Positions 45,300 through 46,058 of a stretch of DNA of 46,058 bases are shown here, piece by piece. Source of the stretch: Candidatus Saccharimonadota bacterium (GTDB lineage Bacteria; Patescibacteriota; Saccharimonadia; Saccharimonadales; OFTM59); the NCBI GenBank assembly GCA_029260875.1, contig JAJDCL010000007.1, positions 1-46,058 of the forward strand, given 5' to 3'. The position numbers and the translations under genes were made by a program. How positions within the stretch are numbered: position 1 is the stretch's first letter; every line of letters starts with the position of its first letter. The notes below the pieces were generated by a model. It was not told the origin of the DNA and ran no database searches. It saw only the letters and a program-made list of their open reading frames with translations.

Positions 45300-45317
45300 C
45301 CCCGTATCTGTTACACT
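45289..45317 (+). promoter_or_regulatory. Promoter for the tRNA-Thr-tRNA-Tyr unit
   Basis: TTGTTA (45289-45294), a 17-nt spacer and TACACT (45312-45317). The predicted start is about 10 nt before tRNA-Thr. The -35 overlaps the stop region of the TPR gene. Confidence 0.6.
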
Positions 45318-45333
45318 TTTGCAGTTATTTCAA

Positions 45334-45409
45334 GCCGACGTAGCTCAGTGGTCAGAGCGGCTGTTTTGTAAACAGCGGGTCGTGGGTTCGACTCCCTCCG
45401 TCGGCTCCA
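45334..45409 (+). tRNA. tRNA-Thr (anticodon TGT)
   Basis: A 76-nt tRNA with acceptor GCCGACG pairing CGTCGGC, discriminator T and encoded CCA (45407-45409). The anticodon loop TTTGTAA closed by GCTGT/ACAGC places TGT at 45367-45369. The T arm has GGGTTCGACTCCC. It is processed with the following tRNA-Tyr. Confidence 0.95.
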
Positions 45410-45419
45410 ATTTAAAAAT

Positions 45420-45505
45420 GCAGGGTTAGTGAAGCGGTCAAACACGACTGACTGTAAATCAGTTGGCTTATGCCTTCGGGGGTTCGAATCCCTCACCCTG
45501 CACCA
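45420..45505 (+). tRNA. tRNA-Tyr (anticodon GTA)
   Basis: An 86-nt tRNA with a long variable arm, as expected for bacterial tRNA-Tyr. Acceptor GCAGGGT pairs ACCCTGC, discriminator A, encoded CCA (45503-45505). Anticodon GTA at 45454-45456 sits in the loop CTGTAAA closed by ACTGA/TCAGT. The 3' end plus 7 nt recur at 45676-45702. Confidence 0.95.
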
Positions 45506-45512
45506 AATAAAA
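45486..45512 (+). repeat. 27-bp direct repeat, copy 1 (tRNA-Tyr 3' end)
   Basis: GAATCCCTCACCCTGCACCA plus AATAAAA, covering the 3' T-arm and acceptor strand, CCA and 7 downstream nt. It repeats exactly at 45676-45702. A tRNA 3' end is the usual integrase attachment target. Confidence 0.8.
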
Positions 45513-45514
45513 TA

Positions 45515-45537
45515 CCGGTCTCTATGACCGGCTTTTT
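45515..45537 (+). terminator. Terminator of the tRNA unit
   Basis: CCGGTC (45515-45520), loop TCTAT, GACCGG (45526-45531), then C and five T's. Confidence 0.85.
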
Positions 45538-45675
45538 AGTTGGTTTATGAGTCTGGATTCTAATACCCGATGGACGCCTTCGGGGTGAGAACTACGCGGT
45601 GGCAGTTCGCAAGGCAATCTTCCGATGGCAACTGGTTTGCCATTCGCGAAGTTGCGGGCCGGCGGGACGTCGGTT

Positions 45676-45702
45676 GAATCCCTCACCCTGCACCAAATAA
45701 AA
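45676..45702 (+). repeat. 27-bp direct repeat, copy 2 (displaced tRNA-Tyr 3' end)
   Basis: Exact second copy of 45486-45512, 190 bp downstream, without a tRNA body. It looks like the far end (attR/attL-like) of an excised or decayed integrative element. The 138 nt between the first terminator and this copy contain tRNA-like fragments (GCCTTCGGGG, 45575-45584) and hairpins but no gene. Confidence 0.75.
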
Positions 45703-45709
45703 ATAGTCT

Positions 45710-45732
45710 GCCTAAGAAGATAGGCTTTTTTT
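45710..45732 (+). terminator. Terminator after displaced tRNA-Tyr end
   Basis: GCCTA (45710-45714), AGAAGA loop, TAGGC (45721-45725), then seven T's (45726-45732). Confidence 0.8.
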
Positions 45733-45745
45733 ATTTGACGTCGCG

Positions 45746-45838
45746 TGATGGGATTTGAACGTACTACCCTGAATGCCCCCGGACCTTAAGTCCTAAAAGA
45801 CGCCAGTCGGCATGTTTTAGGTTGCCCGTAGCAAAAGT
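45746..45838 (-). pseudogene. Possible decayed tRNA-Leu (TAA) remnant
   Basis: On the minus strand, a stretch has an anticodon-arm-like GGACTTAAGGTCC (loop with TAA), a long variable-like region and TTCAAATCCC like a T loop. Anticodon and T stems are mostly mismatched, the acceptor stem cannot be closed, and no CCA follows. If real, it is a dead tRNA-Leu next to the IS end. Confidence 0.3.
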
Positions 45839-45928
45839 AAATTTCTTTTGTGGCAGGGCGAATCCTAAGGCCTGCGATAAGAAACAGGCTGTTAATTAAA
45901 TTTTTATATAGCCTGATCCGTATAAAAC

Positions 45929-46058
45929 TCAGGAGCTTTGCAACATTTGGCTTGGTGTCCTGTACTGCAAGCTCAAGTGTACACGCTTAGTGTTGTAGAA
46001 CTTCAGGTAGTTGTTAAGTTTAGTCTGTATTTGTGTGTTTGGGATCTTAAAGTCTAGG
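45929..46058 (-). CDS. C-terminus of a DDE (rve) transposase, cut by the window edge
   Basis: The last 42 codons of a minus-strand frame ending in TGA (45929-45931). The peptide LNNYLKFYNTKRVHLSLQYR then TPSQML is the typical end of integrase-core transposases (IS3/IS481 types: NxxLxxYNxxRxHxxLxxxTPxxxL). The catalytic DDE core lies outside the window. Position next to tRNA-derived repeats suggests a mobile-element hotspot. Family choice is uncertain. Confidence 0.75.
   Translation of the reverse strand, partial: LDFKIPNTQIQTKLNNYLKFYNTKRVHLSLQYRTPSQMLQSS

Follow-up and report, generated by a model that had tools for sequence, protein, structure and literature searches.

The window analysed here is the whole stretch of 46,058 nucleotides of contig JAJDCL010000007.1 from a Candidatus Saccharimonadota bacterium (GCA_029260875.1, hereafter G000; its congener is G001). 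Towards its right edge the window carries intact tRNA-Thr and tRNA-Tyr genes, followed by displaced pieces of tRNA sequence and by two inserts of different families, E1 and E2 (Table 1). An exact 27-nt direct repeat covers the 3′ end of the tRNA-Tyr gene with the adjoining AATAAAA, and recurs at 45676-45702, 190 nt from start to start, as a previous sequence-only reading of this DNA had reported; its occurrence by chance is excluded by simple arithmetic. That reading had also described a terminator behind the displaced copy and a gene-free interval with tRNA-like pieces, and both descriptions hold. Each repeat copy is followed by a hairpin with a T-run, no credible gene was found among the window ORFs between the two copies, and the tRNA-like pieces correspond to an antisense copy of the T-arm (rcS) and a sense copy of the 5′ strand of the T-stem (s5). 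The region 45484-45740 folds with a z of -4.4.

Beyond the second hairpin lies a decayed E2 copy, whose fold has a z of -1.6, compared with -6.8 and -5.6 for the copies beside tRNA-Lys and tRNA-Ser (G001). A dead tRNA-Leu had been suspected in this part, where neither ARAGORN nor Rfam gave a tRNA match; the stretch contains an antisense T-arm fragment and the decayed E2 unit. The transposase end noted at the right edge could be recognised as the end of an insertion sequence (45918-46058, start approximate), which encodes the C-terminus of a transposase (rve). The same 140-141 bp are also found at four other contig ends of this genome, so the assembly was probably broken by the insertion sequence.

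Table 1. Features of the tRNA-Thr/tRNA-Tyr locus, in positions of the window
Feature	Position	Strand	Evidence or remark
tRNA-Thr, intact	45334-45409		called by ARAGORN, matched by Rfam
tRNA-Tyr (GTA), intact	45420-45505	+	ARAGORN; Rfam RF00005, 61.7 bits
Repeat copy 1, T-loop to CCA plus AATAAAA	45486-45512	+	initial 20 nt within the tRNA gene
Terminator-like hairpin of the tRNA	45506-45544	+	sequence, fold
rcS, degenerate antisense copy of the tRNA-Tyr T-arm	45555-45573	+	score 11; 0 of 1000 shuffles as high
s5, sense copy of the T-stem 5′ strand, GCCTTCGGGG	45576-45585	+	exact 10-nt match to tRNA positions 53-62
E1, 89-nt structured insert; three hairpin arms, closed by the tRNA stem strands	45586-45674	+	R1, 88.9 bits; covariation
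Displaced tRNA-Tyr 3′ half, T-loop to CCA plus AATAAAA	45675-45702	+	
Second terminator-like hairpin	45696-45739	+	fold
Second antisense T-arm fragment	45745-45760	+	match without shuffle control
E2, decayed insert of a second family	45761-45858	+	also beside tRNA-Lys (G000) and tRNA-Ser (G001)
Second displaced tRNA 3′ end, degenerate (CGAATCC...)	45859-45876	+	by eye

Conserved fold and distribution of E1

A covariance model of E1, named R1, was built from 14 inserts. In an alignment of 107 distinct rows, 94.1% of the cells were paired, compared with 69.3% after shuffling, two-sided changes occurred in 33 of the 34 pairs, and the covariation score reached 0.610, against 0.186 for the shuffled control and at most 0.096 for slid partners; these figures lean towards R1, which was built from some of the same rows and to which the alignment was fitted, and the margin is large. 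GU or UG cells numbered 224 against 47 AC or CA cells, and 136 against 46 when one conserved GU pair was left out, an excess which indicates folding of the tRNA-sense strand and not of its complement. Some of the unpaired nucleotides of E1 are invariant. The alignments show a family of inserts with a conserved predicted fold on the tRNA-sense strand.

The window interval matches sequences beside tRNA-Met and tRNA-Gly of the same genome, and matches were present in 14 of the 31 genomes searched, its own included. The search with R1 revealed 108 places in 18 of these 31 genomes, again including its own. Among 294 genomes of the class, 71 were positive (G000, 68 of the same order and two others of the same class), under stricter filters, so some of the E1-negative genomes may be misses. 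R1 also matched 11 of 379 genomes sampled from the phylum, ten of them G000 or members of the same order and one with a 54-bp match at a contig end; the share of this sample outside the class is not given, and restriction to the class is thus not proven. Ten among the 80 loci listed from a pattern scan of named genomes matched as well, and are labelled Candidatus Saccharimonadia (one), Candidatus Saccharibacteria (two), Candidatus Parcubacteria (one) or 'bacterium' (six).

A viral or plasmid origin of E1 was rejected, since R1 matched none of the 49 viral loci that bear an exact 16-base pattern, the search being confined to pattern-bearing loci, and BLAST gave no match in phage and plasmid collections. 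At gathering scores, Rfam recognised only tRNA and, in one stretch, RNase P in the window and further loci, and E1 was therefore not assigned to a known RNA family; permissive scans added, beyond tRNA, only weak matches below the gathering scores. The literature matches listed, a set with preprints and most subscription papers outside its scope, describe no E1-type element in the parts available. E1 adds a structured RNA family without Rfam match, with more than 100 copies in 18 genomes.

Position of E1 relative to tRNA genes

The surroundings of E1 were analysed for 108 distinct matches, a set that overlaps the 108 matches of the 31-genome search and is not identical with it; two of them, L062 and L072 (minus strand), are antisense matches over E1 copies and were kept. 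For 89 of the 108 a tRNA gene was found in the fetched stretch, and for 84 it lay at most 300 bp away. Eighty-two of these 84 have the same strand as the intact tRNA, 48 downstream and 34 upstream of it, which shows an adjoining intact tRNA to be the usual setting of E1. The flanks match the adjoining tRNA at p ≤ 0.01 in 73 out of the 84, over 25 tRNA types, and 11 have no significant flank match. The 19 matches without a tRNA in the fetched stretch include some at contig ends, and two, L097 and L087, that look unrelated to tRNA. At L097 (contig C10 of G007), two E1 copies follow a protein-coding stretch, with hairpin-like repeats that are not tRNA-like in appearance.

Downstream units carry the tRNA 3′ half, and 38 of the 42 well-matched ones lie at most 89 bp from the tRNA. 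In the 31 well-matched upstream units, the 5′ part reaches the D-loop (5), the end of the D-stem (7), the anticodon loop (6) or positions 45-64 (13, mostly the T-loop). These flanks show where the inserts lie: in partial copies of tRNAs, at the position of the T-, D- or anticodon loop. Tandem 174-bp units of the upstream type, belonging to tRNA-Pro(GGG), run into the end of contig C12 of G000 (L063, 1464-1775); the intact tRNA-Pro(GGG) is found close to one end of contig C25, which suggests a possible join between C12 and C25 at this point.

Full-length copies with E1 in the T-loop were found for tRNA-Gly (L101, contig C4 of G020) and tRNA-Gln (L086, G004), with no intact tRNA in the initial fetched stretch. 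The tRNA-Gly copy retains its T-stem pairing. E1 as an intron was considered for these interrupted tRNAs and rejected, both being read as decaying copies.

The spacers between tRNA and E1 were compared in the 71 of 108 matches that passed filters for length, distance, strand and flank match. The unoccupied site recurred as an antisense copy in 27 of 41 downstream units, compared with 4 and 1 in the controls, which shows that many units share the antisense site. The corresponding figure for upstream units was 18 of 30, weak against controls of 9 and 5.

Partial tRNA copies were also searched without R1. Of 33 tRNA genes examined per genome, 7 in G000 and 11 in G001 have a displaced partial sense copy beside them; the reversed-flank controls all stayed below the threshold, and the G001 count includes a tRNA-Thr case in which the match is confined to the anticodon arm. 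Several of these copies hold inserts of other families. Another insert family, with motifs like ACGCGCAGG - hairpin - CCGAGCATG, occurs in the same arrangement beside tRNA-Leu, -Val, -Met, -Asn and -Tyr (L015, L352, L353, L349, L322 and L328). The inserts at tRNA-Tyr differ between lineages; by a looser local test, a displaced copy within 300 bp is present at 5 of 26 usable tRNA-Tyr loci, that of the window included, and all end within 190 bp. Since unrelated inserts share the same layout, the layout may be selected and not a by-product of movement.

Mobility of E1 and alternative explanations

Comparison of G000 with G001 shows two pairs, in tRNA-Pro and tRNA-Gly units, in which a clean 86-87-bp E1 inside another E1 is present in one congener and absent from the other. 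The net differences are 86 and 87 bp, and no target-site duplication was seen at either pair. These pairs would represent gains and not losses of E1. At tRNA-Gln the locus of G000 is empty, whereas that of G001 is occupied: there the homologous upstream flank continues into a displaced 5′ part, which ends abruptly after nucleotide 17. The tRNA-Met locus is common to both genomes and is therefore taken as inherited, not new. Among the 69 of 108 matches that passed filters for length, distance, strand and flank match, the nearest neighbour lay in the same genome in 27 cases (29 with another tie rule), compared with 5.2 expected and a maximum of 17 in 2000 shuffles, which shows same-genome resemblance above chance. 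Mobility of E1 is supported by these genome comparisons, and the congener pairs allow its movement to be studied.

We read the locus as an RtT-like tRNA repeat unit with a partial tRNA-Tyr copy in sense orientation, the T-loop of which is occupied by E1 (about 87-89 nt), a small RNA element, structured and able to spread within a genome; we give this reading an even chance of being correct. E1 would be a non-autonomous unit that spreads into exposed hairpin loops. A template-switch duplication, running forward-reverse-forward, would restore the tRNA either in that event or in a subsequent one, its product being the tRNA, an antisense site and the site bearing E1. The unit may be transcribed together with the tRNA or by tRNA read-through, and could persist as a folded RNA, comparable to the RtT annotation in E. 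coli.

The strong covariation at the RNA level and the invariant unpaired nucleotides would also suit a functional host RNA, an RtT-like small RNA kept by selection, in which the tRNA pieces are processing signals and nothing is mobile; rttR of E. coli is likewise annotated as a small RNA. This explanation is unlikely, if worth keeping in mind, in view of the patchy presence of E1 (71 of the 294 class genomes), the many tRNAs involved and the similarity of copies within a genome, to which the E1-in-E1 insertions absent from the congener and the decayed copies have to be added.

The sequence-only reading had proposed that the displaced tRNA 3′ end marks a former integration site within an integration hotspot, and that relatives might hold larger islands between the repeats. 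At tRNA-Tyr this was not borne out: the downstream sequence of 25 relatives, searched as far as 15 kb if the contig was long enough (at least 14 kb in 18 of the 25), gave no distant copy of the tRNA 3′ end at a limit of 3 mismatches. Copies at this threshold were present in three of the 25, starting at +147 to +165. However, at five other tRNA loci of relatives, gene-bearing segments of about 0.5-5.7 kb separate the tRNA from another E1 unit, itself with a displaced tRNA end. The five are three tRNA-Lys loci, in G004 (copy at +743, with a NUDIX gene), G008 (+192 and +1098) and G021 (+196 and +2903, with a Peptidase_S24 gene among others), and the tRNA-Met (+187 and +1266) and tRNA-Glu loci (+5868, with a D12-type DNA methyltransferase and others) of G001; the control with reversed sequence gave no match at any of them. 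A distant copy at tRNA-Gln of G004 (+4559) is part of a full-length interrupted tRNA-Gln copy and lies outside the five loci. In the 20 long stretches, 19 of 39 tRNAs have copies, which is not a rate, since the stretches were picked for distant or odd E1 copies.

Three of the segments or units (L423, L424 and L426) have a cassette-like appearance, in that single genes, of 151, 198 and 205 aa, are enclosed by the tRNA or its first unit on one side and, on the other, by an additional E1 unit that has a displaced tRNA end. The tRNA-Glu(ctc) segment (L427, contig C13 of G001) extends to an exact 21-nt 3′ copy with an E1 unit at its end, and encodes, besides the methyltransferase, proteins of 475 and 164 aa without Pfam match; it could be a small defence-type island. 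A gene that we take to be LOG-like is located between two E1 copies beside tRNA-Leu of G008.

Thus tRNA ends with such units also acquire genes in some relatives, and, given the gene segments and the different tRNA-Tyr inserts of each lineage, such tRNA ends can be regarded as insertion hotspots, as had been suggested. Reading the window itself as an integration scar is at best partly supported, its interval being gene-free with a conserved RNA structure inside. One insert family occurs beside 25 tRNA types, 3′ or 5′ of them and at T-, D- and anticodon-loop positions, so a single att core is inadequate as an explanation. A displaced tRNA 3′ end alone is no proof of past phage or island integration.

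The gene-bearing segments at the five loci, among them those with the methyltransferase and the NUDIX protein, fit about as well with a small integrative element, able to carry genes and landing at the loops of tRNAs, of which the E1 unit would be the end or a part of the end, comparable to an att site or to the end of an integron-like cassette; the copy in the window would then be minimal or decayed. Nonetheless, Pfam scans of ten ORFs from the five segments detected no integrase, most E1 units are gene-free with the downstream ones close to their tRNA, and the upstream mirror forms, the D- and anticodon-loop positions and the lack of distant tRNA-Tyr copies in the 25 relatives also argue against it. 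In the cases read, a degenerate tRNA end precedes the distal unit and most of these units have their own terminator, so the genes may have entered between older units by another route. With no match in phage or plasmid collections and G-U pairs that indicate RNA, we find the integrative element rather unlikely. The gene segments between units offer a direct test of whether such RNAs help tRNA genes to capture DNA.

A mover acting in trans could be a RAYT (HUH, Y1) transposase working on single-stranded hairpins, with E1 as a REP-like element. RAYT-like genes were found in 32 of 71 E1-positive and 20 of 223 E1-negative genomes (Fisher p 1e-10), and by genus in 19 of 41 versus 16 of 87 (p 0.0014), which accounts for ancestry to the genus level; some of the E1-negative genomes may be misses of the stricter search. 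Reverse transcriptases showed no such excess (16 of 71 versus 76 of 223), which adds weight to the RAYT association, and were rejected as movers. The lack of a target-site duplication and the presence of a RAYT-like gene within the window would also be in line with a RAYT mover. Yet no Y1 match was obtained in 39 of the 71 E1-positive genomes, E1 lies near only one of 18 RAYT loci, inverted repeats of their own, at least 12 nt long, are present at both ends of 10 of the 14 genes read out from these 18 loci, and the G-U pairs are of RNA type, so that movement by RAYT appears quite improbable.

The RAYT-like Y1 transposase gene of the window is located at 1709-2338 on the minus strand (PF01797, 40 bits), with the inverted repeat AGGTCGTACCTCTA on both flanks. 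The RAYT genes of these genomes (L379-L394) carry palindromes, several with a GGACGGACC / GGTCCGACC core, which are apparently a REP type of this group.

The antisense site could, very doubtfully, be a guide and not debris. The element would in that case be RNA-guided, homing to the loops of tRNAs by means of a protein in trans, and would usually be gene-free and occasionally capture genes. As rcS can pair across E1 with both tRNA stem strands in both mirror layouts, each unit would then combine its own target-matching guide with a common scaffold RNA. If tRNA genes had simply been duplicated locally and had decayed, E1 being filler, the frequent partial copies in G000 and G001 would be explained; this is hardly credible for a single conserved, structured family whose members sit at matching positions in the loops, and is contradicted by the covariation.

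Comparison with known systems

Integron cassettes have a folded site that ends single genes in an array, and some tRNA-Lys loci described here resemble them in having a folded site after single genes, a likeness of arrangement only. They differ in that most E1 units are gene-free, the landing site is a tRNA loop and the strand evidence indicates RNA.

According to a passage in PMC3984707, group I introns occupy bacterial tRNA loops. E1, in contrast, measures about 87 nt, and 84 of 108 copies have an intact tRNA as their neighbour; group I and II intron models gave no match in the window and none at gathering scores in 12 further loci. Inserts at stem-loops are also known as rRNA intervening sequences, and an excerpt of PMC11270868 gives, for Candidatus Saccharibacteria, 64 of 66 rRNA inserts without introns as at most 250 bp long. 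E1 shares with them the small size and the position at stem-loops, whereas it occupies partial tRNA copies, and Rfam detected no rRNA in the 12 scanned of 14 tRNA-less loci.

REP and REPIN sequences are, like E1, short, structured and multi-copy, and RAYT-like genes co-occur with E1 by genome. However, a REP is described in the excerpts available as a 20-40-bp palindrome, whereas E1 has about 87 nt and three arms and is found mostly beside tRNAs. A passage in PMC2817692 describes REPs as flanking the rayt gene in inverted orientation; the RAYT genes here, including that of the window, carry other palindromes in this place.

The closest resemblance is with the tyrT/tyrV locus of E. coli. Downstream of tyrV, three copies of the tRNA 3′ end (19 of the last 21 nt) follow at steps of 178 bp. 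The unit consists of an antisense T-arm GGGGAAGGATGAGAAGCTTCGA (score 16, 0 of 1000 shuffles as high), the sense strand AAGGTTCGA / AAGGTTCG, an insert and AATCC...CCA. The stretch gives four matches to Rfam RtT (RF00391) of 133-138 bits, and covariation support for the RtT structure has been published, as stated in a part of PMC8250186. Both E. coli and the window thus possess a displaced tRNA 3′ half, an antisense T-arm, a sense T-stem strand, an insert in the T-loop and a predicted RNA fold, and the window unit has the RtT-like layout. The inserts are unrelated in sequence: RF00391 had no match at E ≤ 5 in window positions 45300-46058, the four E. coli matches serving as positive control, and R1 did not exceed 9.2 bits when run on the sequence from E. 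coli. Compared with RtT, E1 inserts are multi-copy, lie beside 25 tRNA types, occur also upstream and in other loops, and can be nested. By its sequence organisation the window unit appears to work like, or to have arisen like, an RtT unit, with an insert outside the RtT family. E1 is a new insert family in an RtT-like layout, and the tyrT repeats of E. coli with their RtT RNA become one case of a recurrent arrangement, that of structured RNAs in the loops of partial tRNA copies.
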